34,492 bases of DNA. It comes from Oscillatoria sp. (GTDB lineage Bacteria; Cyanobacteriota; Cyanobacteriia; Cyanobacteriales; Laspinemataceae). The DNA is taken from the NCBI GenBank assembly GCA_011390515.1, contig JAABSJ010000041.1:1-34492 (forward strand). Direction: 5' to 3'. The notes under the pieces were generated by a model. The model saw only the letters and a program-made list of their open reading frames with translations. It had not been told where the DNA came from and ran no database searches. Position 1 is the first letter of the stretch. Every line of letters starts with the position of its first letter. Position numbers and translations under genes: made by a program. Below, one piece after another: positions 2,337-32,857 of the stretch.

Positions 2337-4106
2337 CTATTGCCTACATCGATAAAGTTGATAGGGAATTCCTAATCGATAATATTGACTAGGGTCGAGA
2401 TTACAGAGGCGATCGCCTAACCCCAATTGCTGCGGATATTCTCGCTGACGCAAACCCGGGGCGACAATCCATAAATTAACAGCAGCAGGCGGTAATTCTG
2501 AAACAGCACCCAGATTTTCCCAAACGGATTGATAACTGGGCGATCGCGTCATAAATGCCCAATCTGTCTCCGGTAAATTTCCCTCTCTAATTTTATCCAA
2601 TTCTAGGGCAAAACTCAACCCCAATGCCACCTCTTGCATATTCTCATATCCCACCACCACCACTAACGGCACAGTCGGTTCTAAATTAAGCTGCTGCGCC
2701 ACCCCTGCCGGATTATAAGGCTTTTGAAAAACCCAATTTGACACCACAAAAACACTACTGATTAGTCCGACTATTAGAAAAGCGGGAATTAAATACGAAC
2801 CCGCACCCTGAAGGGTGGGGCTATACGGACGAAGCCCGCCTGCGCGGGCTAATAGAGAAAACCGAGTTTTGTTCAGTGGATTTGGGGGTTTCATCATCAA
2901 ACTCGCGCCTAATAGGGCACAAATCCCTGGATAATAGATAAAGTGGTAGCGCACTGCCGAGGTAATATCTTTGCCCAACCCATAAACAATCGTAAAATAT
3001 TCTAATAAAACAACTGCCGTAAATCCCAGTAAACTTACACCCGATAAGCGGGTGGTTTTGTTGTTTAAAACGGCTTTGATTCGCGGAGTAATCCCAATTA
3101 AAAAATACCCGCACCAAAGCAGCATTAAAATGGCCGACGGAATAACAACCCACAGGGGTTGATTTTCCACCGGAAATGCCACTATCATCACCACCCAACC
3201 GGCTAAGGTTTGAACAATCGGCGTTACACTATCCATCCAGGACGGTTCAAAGGGTTTAAACCAATCGGTTTCGGGACGACTAAAATGGTTGTGCAGGGTG
3301 GGTAACCAAGGAAAATACAACAACAAGGGCAGCAAACTATACCCCGCCAAACTCAGCCAAGTTACGGTTTCTTTAGCCGATGCCGAGGGGGTGGGTTCCG
3401 GTAGTGCCAGCCTTCCTGGATGAAAATATTTCCCTAAACTTAACGCCAAAATGGTCACTAATTCCGCGACCCAAGCTAACAGGAAAAAATAGTGGGTGTA
3501 GAGTCCTAATGTATTAACAATTGCCCAACAGATTCCCAGCCAAGGGCGAATTTTTACCCGATGATGTAAATTTTTTTGAATCTGAATAAATCCCATCAGG
3601 GATAAAATAATTAACAGCATCGGTAGGGTATAATGGCGGGCCTCCTGGGAAAGATAAACGGCAAAGGGAGAGACTGCCATCACTGCTGCACCCATTAATC
3701 CAGCTTGCCGAGAAAAGGCGATGCGATTTAACCCATACATGGCAGCGATCGCACCCACGCCAAACAGGGCACAGAGCGATCGGGTTTGCCATATCCAAGA
3801 CCCCCGAACCCCACTCAACCACTCATGAGTTAAGCAAAAAAACAACGGGGGATGAGTGGATTCCGTTGCCACGGTTTGGGCAATTTGTTGACAACTTGCC
3901 GTGGAATTTAAGGTGAAAATATCGGCAAATTGTGCTAGGGGAAAAACTGCATCTAAGGGAATCTGGTCATAACTTTGCCCCAAACTAAATAACCCGGTGA
4001 GAATTTCATCTAACCAGACGGGTTTGGCCTCTAATTGGGCAAACCGCAGGACAGTACCCAGAATGAGGATACCCGCTAAACTTAAATAAGGTCGATACCT
4101 GTGCAT
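2337..4106 (-). CDS. GT39-like integral membrane glycosyltransferase
   Basis: Predicted polytopic GT-C glycosyltransferase of the ArnT/PMT (GT39) type, using a lipid-linked sugar at the membrane. Near the N-terminus KPVWLDEILTG carries the acidic pair typical of the first extracytoplasmic loop, and WLSGVRGSWIWQTRSLCALFG resembles the next conserved loop. About ten hydrophobic segments follow (for example AAVMAVSPFAVYLSQEARHY). Acceptor and sugar cannot be told. The open frame extends to 4262, but residues upstream of the ATG at 4106 are encoded by an inserted mobile element, so 4106 (589 residues) is chosen; an ATG at 4148 lies inside the element. A REP-like repeat is read in frame at about residues 420-437. 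Confidence 0.8.
   Translation of the reverse strand: MHRYRPYLSLAGILILGTVLRFAQLEAKPVWLDEILTGLFSLGQSYDQIPLDAVFPLAQFADIFTLNSTASCQQIAQTVATESTHPPLFFCLTHEWLSGVRGSWIWQTRSLCALFGVGAIAAMYGLNRIAFSRQAGLMGAAVMAVSPFAVYLSQEARHYTLPMLLIILSLMGFIQIQKNLHHRVKIRPWLGICWAIVNTLGLYTHYFFLLAWVAELVTILALSLGKYFHPGRLALPEPTPSASAKETVTWLSLAGYSLLPLLLYFPWLPTLHNHFSRPETDWFKPFEPSWMDSVTPIVQTLAGWVVMIVAFPVENQPLWVVIPSAILMLLWCGYFLIGITPRIKAVLNNKTTRLSGVSLLGFTAVVLLEYFTIVYGLGKDITSAVRYHFIYYPGICALLGASLMMKPPNPLNKTRFSLLARAGGLRPYSPTLQGAGSYLIPAFLIVGLISSVFVVSNWVFQKPYNPAGVAQQLNLEPTVPLVVVVGYENMQEVALGLSFALELDKIREGNLPETDWAFMTRSPSYQSVWENLGAVSELPPAAVNLWIVAPGLRQREYPQQLGLGDRLCNLDPSQYYRLGIPYQLYRCRQ
2797..2850. repeat. REP-like repeat copy 2, in frame inside the GT39 gene
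   Basis: Two hairpins (caccctgaagggtg and agcccgcctgcgcgggct) joined by gggctatacggacga. It is nearly identical to the other family members. It lies within the glycosyltransferase reading frame without a stop and is translated as roughly LARAGGLRPYSPTLQGAGS, in a hydrophilic loop between membrane segments. Confidence 0.85.
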
Positions 4107-4140
4107 TTTTAAAAAATTGTCCGATTGATTCAGTTCTATT

Positions 4141-4303
4141 GGGAGCATCTCAATTTGTTCAAGAGACCTAACCCCCGGTGCCCCCTTCCCACCCCTCCCC
4201 GGCCCTCCCCTAAGAGGAGAGGGAGAATAAGGAAATTTTTTTATTGCTGGAAGGGGGAGCAAGAGGTGTAAATTCCCCTTTTAGGCAAAATTGAGATGCT
4301 CCC
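4141..4303. mobile_element. MITE copy 1 (16-bp TIRs, 8-bp target duplication)
   Basis: A 163-bp element bounded by terminal inverted repeats gggagcatctcaattt and aaattgagatgctccc. It is flanked by a perfect 8-bp direct repeat, gttctatt (4133-4140 and 4304-4311), read as a target-site duplication. The interior is C/G-rich (agacctaaccccc, a cccttccc run, and gggggagcaaga) and encodes no transposase, so it must be moved in trans if mobile. A second copy at 32685-32794 shares the ends and much of the interior. It lies just upstream of the glycosyltransferase start and only 21 bases from the end of the neighbouring kinase gene. Confidence 0.9.
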
Positions 4304-4324
4304 GTTCTATTACCGATTTTATTC

Positions 4325-5677
4325 TTAGCGATCAATGAATTTAGGTTTTCCGATAAAATCTGCAATTTCTGTGACGATCCACTCTCGTTCTGTTGCGGTT
4401 AGACCGGAACCAAAACGGTAACTATTAACTCCGACTTCTAAGGCACAATTCAAGACTTTATTTGTGCTACTCATCCCCGTTACTGGACTGACTTCCACCC
4501 GACAGATATCATCAATATTACCCTGAATGGTTCTTTTTGTTCCTAAAAAAAACCAGGAGATTTCAAATTTTTCCCTATAAAAAATTAGGTCACTATACAC
4601 GAAAATATGCCGCAGGATCCTGCTCAGGGATAATAGACCCACCCACCAAAAAGGAACAAGAAACAAGACCATGAACAAGTTACCACTCCCAAGAACGGCC
4701 AGACTTGAAGGCACTAAAATTTTCAACCAAACTACCATAAAGAACAATGTAAAAATATGATCTAATTGTAGGCTGGGCCGGGGAACTTTTATCTTGAGTT
4801 GACTGGGAGTTTTTTCCAGAACAACGCGACTGCCTACAGGTTGAAGATTACCCGGAGATCGCGGAACAATCCGTTCTCGTTTAGCCTCCAATACGGCTAA
4901 GGCTTCAGCAGCAGATTTGAATCTATCTTCAATGACAGGTTCCAACATTGTTTCTAACCACTCGGCAAACTCGGGACTGAGGTTGACATAAGGCCGAAAA
5001 TCAATTTTCATCCGTTTTTCGGGAAAATCTGCCGGGTCTTGATGGGTTAATAAAAACAACAAGGTTGCACCCAATCCATATAAATCCGTCGGCGGTTTAG
5101 CTTGTCCCCGAAACTGTTCCGGGGCCATATATCCATAAGTTCCCACAATGGTACTGCCGCTGGTGATGGTATGGCGATAGGTATCTTGAACGGCCCCAAA
5201 ATCTACTAAAAATACCTTGCCATCGGACTGACGAATAATATTTTGGGGTTTAATATCGCGATGAACCACCGGAGGGGTGAGTTGATGCAAATACACCAGA
5301 ATATCTAAGAGTTGTTTAGCAATCTCTCTCACCTCCAATTCCGTCGGACGCCATCCGCTTTTTACCCAGTCTTGCAAGGATTGACCCGGGGCTATTTCTT
5401 GGACGATATAAAAGCGGCGATCGTCGTTGGTATCTAGTTGAAAATAATCCAGATAGTTGGGAATTGCCGGATGATTCAGTTGCGCTAAAACCTTGCCTTC
5501 TCGTTCAAAGAGTTCTAGGGCTTTCCAATCTTTCAACTGCCGCAGGGATAAAATTTTAATCGCAACTTGTTGGGCGAGGGTTAAGTCATCTGCGGCATAA
5601 GTCGAGGCAATTCCGCCTTGTCCTAAGAGGTTAAGAATCTGATAGCGTTCCTTGATGATATCTCCAGGTTGGTGCAT
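4325..5677 (-). CDS. Membrane-anchored Ser/Thr protein kinase, paralogue 1
   Basis: Eukaryotic-type (Hanks) Ser/Thr kinase of 450 residues. The kinase domain covers about residues 11-265: glycine loop GQGGIASTY (19-27), ATP lysine K41 in VAIK, helix-C glutamate E60, catalytic loop H139-R-D-I-K-P-Q-N, DFG at 159-161, and YMAPEQFRG at the end of the activation loop. After a basic linker, about residues 308-365 are hydrophobic and look like two membrane segments. The cytoplasmic tail (about 370-450) resembles a small PH-like beta domain ending in EREWIVTEIADFIGKP. All key catalytic residues are present, so activity is expected; substrates are unknown. First of three tandem paralogues sharing the start MHQP. 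Confidence 0.93.
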   Translation of the reverse strand: MHQPGDIIKERYQILNLLGQGGIASTYAADDLTLAQQVAIKILSLRQLKDWKALELFEREGKVLAQLNHPAIPNYLDYFQLDTNDDRRFYIVQEIAPGQSLQDWVKSGWRPTELEVREIAKQLLDILVYLHQLTPPVVHRDIKPQNIIRQSDGKVFLVDFGAVQDTYRHTITSGSTIVGTYGYMAPEQFRGQAKPPTDLYGLGATLLFLLTHQDPADFPEKRMKIDFRPYVNLSPEFAEWLETMLEPVIEDRFKSAAEALAVLEAKRERIVPRSPGNLQPVGSRVVLEKTPSQLKIKVPRPSLQLDHIFTLFFMVVWLKILVPSSLAVLGSGNLFMVLFLVPFWWVGLLSLSRILRHIFVYSDLIFYREKFEISWFFLGTKRTIQGNIDDICRVEVSPVTGMSSTNKVLNCALEVGVNSYRFGSGLTATEREWIVTEIADFIGKPKFIDR

Positions 5678-5954
5678 GAGTTTTCGCCTATCTTTCTTCT
5701 CGGCTGGTTTCTGATTTAAGGACGAATCGGGTTAATCCCTCTTCCAGACTAGGATGGCAACAGATGCGATCGCTACAACGATCTCGCCAACTCTTGGCCA
5801 CTCTATCCCTTGCCTACGGATGAATGTTGGATTTGTCTTATTTGGACCGATTCATTCTATTCTAACCTATCGGAGGAATTTGTTGCCATCATTGTTGCCT
5901 TGCCGCACCGAAGATCAGGCCCTTATCCAATGGATTTAGGTCCGATCGCTATTT
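5678..5954. other. Kinase 1 upstream region with a decayed DUF4349 3' end
   Basis: 277-bp intergenic stretch. A 22-base block, cgaatcgggttaatccctct plus tc, at 5723-5744 is identical to 8861-8882 and lies the same 45 bases upstream of the kinase start codon in both places. Positions 5807-5869 align without gaps to 8936-8998 (about 48 of 63 bases equal by eye), which is the last 18 or so codons of the DUF4349 gene; here the frame is broken by stops. The region is therefore a duplicated upstream segment plus a gene remnant. No intact gene is called. Confidence 0.75.
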
Positions 5955-7325
5955 TTATCGTTTGATTAAGTGAGGTTTTCCCAGAAAAGCCGCAATTTCC
6001 ATTGCGATCCACTCTCGTTCAGTTTGAGTCAGTCCCGAACCAAAGCGGTAAGTTTTAAATCTCATTTGTAAGGCACAGGTGATAATAGGGTAACCTTGTA
6101 TAGAAAACAGGGTGGGAAATACTTGCACACTAGAAATATCATGGATATTTCCCTGAATTTCCCGTTGAATCCCTAAAAAATTCCACTTTAAATAAAATTT
6201 AGTTTCACGAAACTCTAAGGTAACCCTCCCAAACTGATTTAACAAAAAATCACCTAATAACTTAATTTCCAACAACAACACAAAAAATAGTAATACAAGA
6301 AGTGTTGGAGATTGATTTGCGGCAAATAAGATGACCGGAAAGAACGAAATATTCAAAATTGCAACAATTAAAATCAAAGATAAAGAGGGTAATTTCCATC
6401 CCAAAAAGGGAATTTTTACCTCTAGTTTCCCAGGAGTAATTTTGATGGAAACGCGACTTCCTGCCAGGTGATGATGATTAGTGGCTCGCGGAGCAATTAT
6501 TTGTTTTTTTGCCTTGGGCATTGCTTTTTGTGCCTTTAAAACAGCTAATGCTTCCGCAGCAGAGGTCAAGCGATTTTCAACCAGCGGTTCTAACAAATTT
6601 TCTAACCAATCCGCTAGTTCAGGGGAAATATTGACAGAAGACCGAAAATCAATTTTGAGTCTTGTTTCTGGAAAATCTGCTGGGGTTTTGTGGGTTAATA
6701 AAAATAACAGAGTTGCCCCTAAACCATATAAATCAGTCGCCGGTTCTGCTTGTCCGCGAAACTGTTCTGGGGCCATATATCCATAAGTACCAACTACGGT
6801 ACTCCCGCTCGTCATAGTATGACGATAAGTATCTTTAACCGCACCAAAATCGATTAACAAAATCTTACCATCAGACTGGCGAATAATATTAGGTGGTTTG
6901 ATATCTCGATGAATGACCGGGGGATTAATTTGGTGTAAATAAACTAGAATTTCTAAGAGTTGTTCGCCTATCTCTCTGACTTCAAGTTCCGTGGGATGCC
7001 ATCCGCTTTCTACCCAATCTTGCAAGGATTTACCCGGGACGATTTCTTGGACGATATAAAAGCGGCGATCGTCGTCTGTATCGAGTTGAAAGTAGTCCAG
7101 ATAGTTGGGAATTGCCGGATGATTTAATTGCGAAAGGACCTTCCCTTCTCGCTCAAAAAGTTCCAGGGATTTCCAGTCTTTTAATCGCCGTAGAGACAGA
7201 GCTTTAATGGCTACATCTTGCCCCGTATCTAAGTTCTGAGCGGCATAAGTTGTGGCAATTCCTCCTGTTCCCAAGGGGTGCAGAATCCGATAACGGTCCT
7301 TGATAATTTCTTCGGGTTGATGCAT
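5955..7325 (-). CDS. Membrane-anchored Ser/Thr protein kinase, paralogue 2
   Basis: 456-residue Hanks-type kinase, clearly homologous along its full length to the genes on both sides. Kinase motifs: GTGGIATTY, lysine in DVAIK at residue 41, E60, HRDIKPPN (Q replaced by P against the other two), DFGAVKDT and YMAPEQFRG. The linker is lysine-rich (KAQKAMPKAKKQ). Two strong hydrophobic segments follow (SLSLILIVAILNISFFPVILFA and LLVLLFFVLLLEI), then the conserved tail with FRFGSGLTQ-type sequence and EREWIAMEIAAFLGKP. The catalytic set is complete. It is separated by 113 bases from paralogue 3 and lacks the duplicated upstream block found before paralogues 1 and 3, so it may be read through from paralogue 3 or use its own promoter. 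Confidence 0.93.
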   Translation of the reverse strand: MHQPEEIIKDRYRILHPLGTGGIATTYAAQNLDTGQDVAIKALSLRRLKDWKSLELFEREGKVLSQLNHPAIPNYLDYFQLDTDDDRRFYIVQEIVPGKSLQDWVESGWHPTELEVREIGEQLLEILVYLHQINPPVIHRDIKPPNIIRQSDGKILLIDFGAVKDTYRHTMTSGSTVVGTYGYMAPEQFRGQAEPATDLYGLGATLLFLLTHKTPADFPETRLKIDFRSSVNISPELADWLENLLEPLVENRLTSAAEALAVLKAQKAMPKAKKQIIAPRATNHHHLAGSRVSIKITPGKLEVKIPFLGWKLPSLSLILIVAILNISFFPVILFAANQSPTLLVLLFFVLLLEIKLLGDFLLNQFGRVTLEFRETKFYLKWNFLGIQREIQGNIHDISSVQVFPTLFSIQGYPIITCALQMRFKTYRFGSGLTQTEREWIAMEIAAFLGKPHLIKR

Positions 7326-7438
7326 GGTTTTTTATTTTCACTCTTAAAGGATGGCTACATTCCAGGTGATCACCTATCTCAAAAACTAGGGCAAGAAATC
7401 CAGTTTGGGTTTGCTTTTAGACCCAATACAGCAATGGA

Positions 7439-8815
7439 TTAGGTATCAATAACTTTGGGTTTTCCGATAAAATTTGAAATTTCTGTAACTAACCATTCTT
7501 TTTCTGCTTGATTCAGATTATACCCAAAATGGCAAGATTTAACTCCAACTTGTAAAACACAGCTTATGATAAAACGGTACTTCACCTTGGTATTTTTGTT
7601 TTTAATTCGTATTTTCTTTTTGCGGACTTCCACTCTAAAAATATCCTGAATGTTCCCCTGGACTTTTCGGCTTAATCCCAAAAAAATCCAGGATATTTTA
7701 AACTGATTACCCTGAAAATTTAGTTGAGTGGAAACTAAACAATCAACGAATTTAGGACCGAAGAATCCACTACTTAAAACACAAAATAAAAACCCAGCCA
7801 GGAAAAACCACGCAATTTCAGAATTGACAGGACTCACAATAGGCACTAATACCCTGCTCCCTACTAAAATAGCGAAGAAGAGAAAAAATAAACTTATAAA
7901 AGCTTTTGATGGATTGGGAGGGATTGTTATGGATAGTTTATTCTGTTTTTTTTGCAGAAGGACTTTACTGTTAATAGGTTGTGGATTACTGAGCGATCGC
8001 GCCGCAATAATTTCTCGGTGTGAATGCAATAGTTCTAAGGCTTCCCTTGCAGATTTAAAGCGATCTTCAATCAAAGGTTCGAGCAATCCCTCTAACCAAT
8101 CTGCCAACTCTGGAGAAATTTCAATATAAGGACGAAAGTCAATTTTTAGCTGTTTTTCTGGCAAATCTGCCGGTGATTGATGGCTTAACAAAAACAATAA
8201 AGTTGCACCTAAACCATATAAATCTGTAGCGGGTTCAGATTTTCCTCGAAACTGTTCCGGTGGCATATATCCATAAGTGCCAACCATTGTCCCACCCCGG
8301 CTTAGAGTATGACAATAGGTGTCTTGCACTGCACCAAAATCCACTAAAAACACTTTACCATTAGAGTCACGAATAATATTCTGAGGTTTGATATCTCGAT
8401 GAACGACCGGGGGGTTAAGTTGATGCAGATATCCCAGGATTTCTAAAACTTGTTCAGCAATGTCTCTGACCTCCATTTCCCTCGAATCCCATCCGCTTTC
8501 TACTAATTCTTGTAAGGATTTGCCCGGGGCAATTTCCTGGACAATACAGAAGGAGCGATCGTCGTTAGTATCCAGTTGGAAATAATCCAAATAATTGGGA
8601 ATGGCTGGATGATTTAATTGAGACAGAATCTTGGCTTCCCGCTCAAAAAGTTCTAAGGCTTTCCAATCGGTTAACTCCCGCAAGGATAAAATTTTAATCG
8701 CCACATTTTGTCCGATATCTAGGTCTTCTGCGGCATAAGTCGTGGCAATTCCTCCTTGTCCCAAAGTGTTCAGAATCCGATAGCGTTCCTTGATGACCTC
8801 TCCGGGTTGATGCAT
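7439..8815 (-). CDS. Membrane-anchored Ser/Thr protein kinase, paralogue 3
   Basis: 458-residue Hanks-type kinase and the most upstream gene of the tandem array. Motifs: GQGGIATTY, K41 in NVAIK, E60, HRDIKPQN, DFGAVQDT. The APE motif reads PPE (YMPPEQFRG), and the activation loop is SRGGTMVGT rather than TSGSTIVGT. Two hydrophobic segments lie at about residues 305-350 (SLFFLFFAILVGSRVLVPIV and WFFLAGFLFCVLSSGFF). The C-terminal domain carries an extra basic insert (VRKKKIRIKNKNTKVKYR) against its paralogues and ends in EKEWLVTEISNFIGKP. It lies next to the DUF4349 gene; the upstream block at 8861-8882 probably contains its promoter region. Confidence 0.93.
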   Translation of the reverse strand: MHQPGEVIKERYRILNTLGQGGIATTYAAEDLDIGQNVAIKILSLRELTDWKALELFEREAKILSQLNHPAIPNYLDYFQLDTNDDRSFCIVQEIAPGKSLQELVESGWDSREMEVRDIAEQVLEILGYLHQLNPPVVHRDIKPQNIIRDSNGKVFLVDFGAVQDTYCHTLSRGGTMVGTYGYMPPEQFRGKSEPATDLYGLGATLLFLLSHQSPADLPEKQLKIDFRPYIEISPELADWLEGLLEPLIEDRFKSAREALELLHSHREIIAARSLSNPQPINSKVLLQKKQNKLSITIPPNPSKAFISLFFLFFAILVGSRVLVPIVSPVNSEIAWFFLAGFLFCVLSSGFFGPKFVDCLVSTQLNFQGNQFKISWIFLGLSRKVQGNIQDIFRVEVRKKKIRIKNKNTKVKYRFIISCVLQVGVKSCHFGYNLNQAEKEWLVTEISNFIGKPKVIDT

Positions 8816-32669: not shown

Positions 32670-32684
32670 TCAGGCTATGAAAAG

Positions 32685-32794
32685 GGGCGCATCTCAATTT
32701 GGCAAAGAGACCTAACCCCCCAGCCCCCTTCCCTCTGAGGGAAGGGGGAGCAAGACGTATAAATTCCCCTTTGAGGCCAAATTGAGATGCTCCC
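32685..32794. mobile_element. MITE copy 2 (TIRs, 8-bp target duplication)
   Basis: A 110-bp element from gggcgcatctcaattt (one base different from copy 1) to aaattgagatgctccc. It is flanked by a perfect 8-bp direct repeat atgaaaag (32677-32684 and 32795-32802). The interior shares agagacctaaccccc, gcccccttccc, gggggagcaaga and taaattcccctttt/gaggc with copy 1, and is shorter by 53 bp. It lies between xfp and ackA, so both genes' co-transcription could be affected. Confidence 0.9.
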
Positions 32795-32823
32795 ATGAAA
32801 AGGCATTAATGAGGCAATCATGC

Positions 32824-32857
32824 CATGTAGAGGCGATTGGCGAATCGCCTCTACATG
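32824..32857. repeat. Palindrome upstream of ackA
   Basis: Perfect 15-base arms catgtagaggcgatt and aatcgcctctacatg around the loop ggcg. It is related to the gattcgagaatcgcc repeats at 29.6-29.9 kb. It lies about 70 bases before the ackA start; no T run follows. Confidence 0.75.

Follow-up and report, generated by a model that had tools for sequence, protein, structure and literature searches.

Introduction

The prokaryotic Mutator-like transposases include those of the ISKra4/ISMich2 group (p-MULT 4; PMC3942029), and that paper gives for their superfamily target-site duplications of 8 or 9 bp and inverted repeats of 18–39 bp, together with a pair of frames in −1 relation that is conserved in the ISMich2 group. 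Type II prokaryotic MITEs, as portrayed in PMC10969869, are shorter than 500 bp, carry inverted ends and direct repeats but no transposase, resemble insertion sequences in the end region only, and occur in many copies of varied length. The Nezha MITE is also cyanobacterial, and no description of an ISKra4-type MITE was found among the matches listed from the open-licence literature.

Here we describe a MITE family from a window of 34,492 nucleotides, the whole stretch of Oscillatoria sp. DNA that was analyzed (contig JAABSJ010000041.1). A 163-bp segment in this window is a MITE and belongs to a real MITE family with dozens of copies in the genome. The two window copies measure 163 and 110 bp and contain no transposase gene, their terminal inverted repeats of 16 bp (perfect in copy 1, one mismatch in copy 2) lie within the 4–30 bp or so used to delimit MITEs, and target-site duplications are present at several sites. 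They resemble type II MITEs in all the properties listed above, but they are richer in G+C (0.52 and 0.56) than the window (0.47), whereas MITEs are typically A+T rich. With the ISKra4/ISMich2 group the family has in common ends that start GGGNGCATC and duplications of 8 bp and sometimes 9 bp, and there are cyanobacterial relatives with like ends. In contrast to that group it encodes no ISKra4 transposase, and its repeat comprises 16 bp at the window copy and about 11 bp in nearly all copies rather than 18–39 bp. Compared with ISKra4-type elements, 11–15 of 16 end bases are alike and no end is exact. Since 163 bp leave no room for a transposase, the lack of which had been pointed out in a preliminary description of this DNA, the segment is classed as a MITE that probably uses an ISKra4 enzyme and not as a member insertion sequence.

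Two Copies of the Element in the Window

The preliminary description had proposed a 163-bp element that has 16-bp inverted ends and is bordered on either side by gttctatt, and this proved correct to the base (Table 1). Both ends of copy 1 read GGGAGCATCTCAATTT with 0 mismatches, and the element is intergenic, with a kinase gene on one side and the downstream gene on the other. Its interior has an outer stem CCCCCTTCC...GGAAGGGGG whose loop holds a second hairpin repeat, and this hairpin inside the loop of the first distinguishes the element from the 110-bp form. Copy 1 as a whole is predicted to fold better than shuffled sequences, both as DNA (z −2.94) and as minus-strand RNA (z −4.53). Within the window alone, 4 end matches occur at up to 3 mismatches compared with 0.65 expected, and 1 of 100 shuffles reached 4.

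Table 1. Coordinates of the two MITE copies and of the downstream gene in the window.
Feature	Position	Strand	Remarks
Downstream gene from conserved ATG	2337..4106	-	weak PMT_2 match, below Pfam cut-off; frame extends to 4262
Target-site duplication, left, copy 1	4133..4140		GTTCTATT
MITE copy 1, 163 bp	4141..4303		ends and duplication; missing from 6 of 7 same-genus genomes, the seventh with a different insertion
Terminal inverted repeat, copy 1	4141..4156	+	GGGAGCATCTCAATTT
G+C-rich hairpin interior, copy 1	4160..4262 (limits approximate)		from sequence
Terminal inverted repeat, copy 1	4288..4303	-	GGGAGCATCTCAATTT
Target-site duplication, right, copy 1	4304..4311		GTTCTATT
Target-site duplication, left, copy 2	32677..32684		ATGAAAAG
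MITE copy 2, 110 bp	32685..32794		ends and duplication
Target-site duplication, right, copy 2	32795..32802		ATGAAAAG

The second occurrence that had been reported at 32685 with a different duplication was likewise recovered; its left end, GGGCGCATCTCAATTT, deviates at one position and its right end is exact. Its length of 110 bp is the commonest one, found in 16 of the 52 duplication-flanked elements. Judged by comparison with Oscillatoria sp. HE19RPO, copy 2 is older than copy 1, because HE19RPO (locus L118) has copy 2 in the corresponding position, with duplication ATGAAAAG and with flanks that are 92–95% identical. Between these orthologous MITEs (window 32685–32794 and L118 2901–3012) the changes are clustered within the left third, and the sequence from HE19RPO agrees with variants found in other copies, a pattern that suggests gene conversion between MITE copies. 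A 34-bp near-perfect palindrome lies close by at 32824–32857, after a phosphoketolase gene, and on another contig (C122, L028) a MITE landed within a sequence like this palindrome.

Ends and Duplications Across the Genome

The genome from which the window comes (5.97 Mb in 376 contigs, 87.5% complete), probably that of a filamentous cyanobacterium to judge by its relatives, contains 61 + 63 = 124 end matches at up to 2 mismatches, compared with 0 + 0 for the reversed-pattern control, and 77 of its ends are exact. Around the ends listed and related sequence, 85 stretches were taken, which cover fewer than all 124 ends. Among 79 candidate inward-facing end pairs, a number that includes alternative pairings with a common end, an exact duplication of 8 bp was present in 34 and one of 9 bp in 5, the two lengths given for the ISKra4/ISMich2 superfamily, and exact duplications of 6, 7 or 10 bp were present in none. 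As a chance control, the 8-bp flanks of different pairs matched in 6 of 6162 cross-pairings. When single ends picked by their 16-mer served as the start, the 8-bp flank of 58 out of 103 distinct ends recurred without mismatch 45–450 bp inside, both ends of one element possibly counting, compared with 4 for a control 8-mer. These figures bear out the claim that real transposition and not chance produced the repeats, and the many further copies with target duplications dispose of the concern that no such copies might exist.

In a scan of a wider collection, 22 loci were recovered from two named relatives, 21 of them from HE19RPO and 1 from an Oscillatoriales MAG. The 8-bp duplication was exact in 16 and had one mismatch in 2, 3 loci were without a duplication in register, and 1 was without a left flank. 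Genome G003 of the comparison described below is probably HE19RPO, judged from a single contig beginning with the same element. A second insertion is common to the window's genome (C204:215–324, L040) and HE19RPO (L114), with duplication GATTCGGT and flanks that are 98–100% identical.

Common Tips and Different Interiors

The duplications also made it possible to locate opposite ends with less reliance on the 16-mer, by which the starting ends had been picked, and of 59 ends found in this way 46 were like GGGAGCATCTC in register (with as many as 4 mismatches allowed in 11 bases), 8 were one base off, as expected from a 9-bp duplication, and 5 were unlike. Positions 1–11 agree in 42–46 of the 46 ends in register, and agreement falls to 39, 38, 32, and 27 at positions 12–15; the part common to nearly all copies is thus only the outer 11 bp or so. 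The 52 duplication-flanked elements split into 11 interior groups at 70% coverage (7 at 50%), the biggest groups comprising 20 and 15 elements, and therefore different interiors have their tips in common.

The commonest interior module, ACCTAACCCCCCAGCCCCCTTCCC, is a G+C-rich hairpin that is also found alone. It has 83 genome matches at up to 1 mismatch, of which 39 distinct ones in the fetched stretches lie at most 250 bp inside an end and 6 lie elsewhere; the other 38 either fall outside these stretches, some of them possibly within elements beyond the set, or were removed when duplicates were merged. Genomes with more exact ends also tend to have more hairpins (Spearman 0.93 over 8 genomes, which are related and hence non-independent). 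In G005 the hairpin repeat also occurs in short tandem runs with a spacing of 119–135 bp (C1:165243–165754 and 2907351–2907643).

Sites Without the Insert and Spread of the Family

The segment of copy 1 is missing from G001, G002, G004, G005, G006, and G007, six of the seven further genomes compared within the genus, so that the possibility raised earlier that relatives keep it as ancestral sequence does not hold. For empty sites a single gttctatt had been predicted; G004 reads through with a single GTTCTA(GC), and in the other five genomes the target is more changed than in G004. In the seventh genome, G003, another insertion, bounded by CTATAGCAATCC/GGATTGCTATAG, is located at most a few bases from the site. 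Because copy 1 is missing from this site in the other genomes of the genus, a gain on the window's lineage is the most likely history suggested by the alignments. The insertion in G003 (L154, about 1925–2035, orthologous to window 4133–4311) is an unrelated small inverted-repeat element, CTATAGCAATCC...GGATTGCTATAG, with TA at its edges, and an exact-pattern look in the own-genome stretches revealed one further 115-bp copy (L022:13).

Among 291 genomes scanned within the order, 33 contain exact ends. G001, G003, G005, and the window's genome each have between 28 and 130 of them, G002, G004, and G006 have 3 to 5, and each other positive genome of the order has 1 to 5, with none in G007. The highest count, 130, belongs to G005, which is assembled in 3 contigs. 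The family thus reaches high copy numbers in some members of a single cyanobacterial genus.

The Likely Parent Transposase

The parent family, which had been unclear at the outset, can now be assigned with good, though indirect, support from likeness of ends, although an insertion sequence with exactly matching terminal repeats was not found. In a profile search, the ISKra4 model NF033572 had 6 hits in the own genome, spread over four contigs, and it matched in 20 of 39 genomes. A transposase-bearing element of the same genus (G003:C79, 1401 bp) has ends GGGAGCATCCCGATTTTG on both sides (14/16 and 14/16 against the MITE 16-mer) and duplication ACCCTCTA, and a broken copy in the same genome (G003:C19) has left end GGGAGCATCTCAGTT, right end GGGAGCATCCCGTTA (14/16 and 11/16), and duplication CGGAAAAG. 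In the same taxonomic family, an element of 1172 bp (G010:C23) has ends GGGTGCATCTCAATTTTG on both sides (15/16 and 15/16) and duplication GTCTTTAG. Another element, of 1227 bp in G021, has ends GGGTGCATCTCAGTTAGG (13/16 and 13/16), two copies being read with duplications at both. Where tested, NF033572 was the best NCBIfam match, scoring 235.6 bits for G021 against a cut-off of 205, above the cut-off for G003:C79, and 173.4 bits, below the cut-off, for G010:C23. The elements of G010:C23 and G021 (loci L205 and L187) have two frames in −1 relation, and from this frame layout rather than from a tree the transposase-bearing relatives probably belong to the ISMich2 group. Because these relatives have like ends and 8-bp duplications, the parent of the MITE is most likely of the ISKra4 family, ISMich2 group.

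An autonomous element with exactly the MITE ends was found neither in the own genome (87.5% complete) nor in the genus, and a search of 65 loci for end pairs more than 300 bp apart with duplications gave none. Where the ends of own ISKra4-type pieces were read, they start with GGGCGCATCTAGG, GGGTGCATCTAGG or GGGCGCATCCAGC, with 10/16 for the one scored. The ISMich2 model matches the own genome weakly, in two copies only; one copy has quite different ends on either side, and so has the other on the single side that was read. G001 and G004 contain MITE ends and no transposase match at all, and G005 has a broken transposase copy only, despite its 130 exact ends. The matching enzyme may have been lost or left unassembled, or a relative may act across. 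Two candidates were rejected: the exact-end pair on C135 (2432 bp), whose right end is that of a 110-bp MITE with its own duplication, and the own ISKra4 element on C101 (1535 bp, 503-aa frame), with ends of 10/16 and unduplicated flanks. The ISKra4-type pairs L185, L188, L191, and L202 have no 8-bp duplication in register; L188, L191, and L202 resemble 9-bp duplications and were left out of the counts. A further ISKra4-type element (L035 4310–5621, G000:C168) with ends GGGCGCATC(T/C)AG is found 36 bp inward from a MITE end, into which it looks inserted, and its flanks are without a duplication.

Proposed Mechanism and Alternative Explanations

Taken together, the element is very probably a non-autonomous type II MITE moved in trans by a Mutator-like DDE transposase of the ISKra4/ISMich2 group. 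Such an enzyme would recognize the outer bases GGGAGCATCTC at both ends, mobilize the unit and insert it at a staggered cut, and fill-in of this cut would leave the 8-bp, now and then 9-bp, duplication. About 11 bp of end would then suffice for the transposase, and the interior hairpins would be passive cargo. More tentatively, the tips could serve an ISMich2-type transposase as portable handles that pick up resident palindromic repeats, spread them, and swap interiors by gene conversion, resulting in a mosaic cargo system.

Families that make 8-bp duplications include ISL3, IS66, IS1595, and IS256, and a transposase of another such family, with convergent likeness to ISKra4 ends, might have moved the MITE. 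One ISL3 transposase (C27) is indeed present in the own genome, and an exact ISKra4 partner was found in neither genome nor genus. However, the ISL3 locus is without such an end, although its contig begins close to the gene, IS1595 gave no match, and both were rejected as parents; the search covered ISL3, IS1595, ISKra4, and ISMich2. Moreover, five transposase-bearing ISKra4-type elements (two being copies of one insertion sequence) carry the common bases precisely at their tips and also have 8-bp duplications, so that we regard another parent family as improbable.

Mobilization by an ISKra4/ISMich2-type enzyme also has to be weighed against readings in which the segment did not move or is kept for its effects. 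That the segment is ancestral or arose by hairpin expansion, its duplications being due to chance, could appeal to the interior hairpin occurring without ends, as in G007 with 7 hairpin matches and 0 exact ends, but sites without the insert in six genomes, duplications far above the control, and a different duplication at each window copy make this explanation practically negligible. The element might instead be retained because it acts on the two genes that it separates, as a terminator, promoter or mRNA stabilizer, and the strong predicted fold (z −4.53) would speak for this. Promoter-like or terminator-like sites were absent from 4050–4400, a weak argument with 0.6 and 0.4 expected by chance, no Rfam family matched the element, and the insertion is not at this site in seven other genomes; the scans thus gave a regulatory role no support, and we consider it very unlikely.

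As a high-copy cyanobacterial MITE family tied by its ends to ISKra4/ISMich2 transposases, the elements provide a natural collection of ends that allows the minimal recognized tip to be guessed, and they offer a likely route for the multiplication of intergenic hairpin repeats.

Neighboring Genes

The open frame of the downstream gene, described beforehand as running into the element, does open inside copy 1 (2337..4262, within 4141–4303), and six relatives in the comparison retain an ATG at this gene's position 4106. Because of this frame start and the conserved ATG, it is plausible that automatic start calling would give the gene a false N-terminus, a warning that start calls for genes beside such insertions may lie too far upstream. 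On the other side of copy 1, the gene at 4325–5677 has a clear protein kinase match, and the region 4325–8815 contains three successive minus-strand frames with the same N-terminal layout, MHQPxxxIKxRYxIL.
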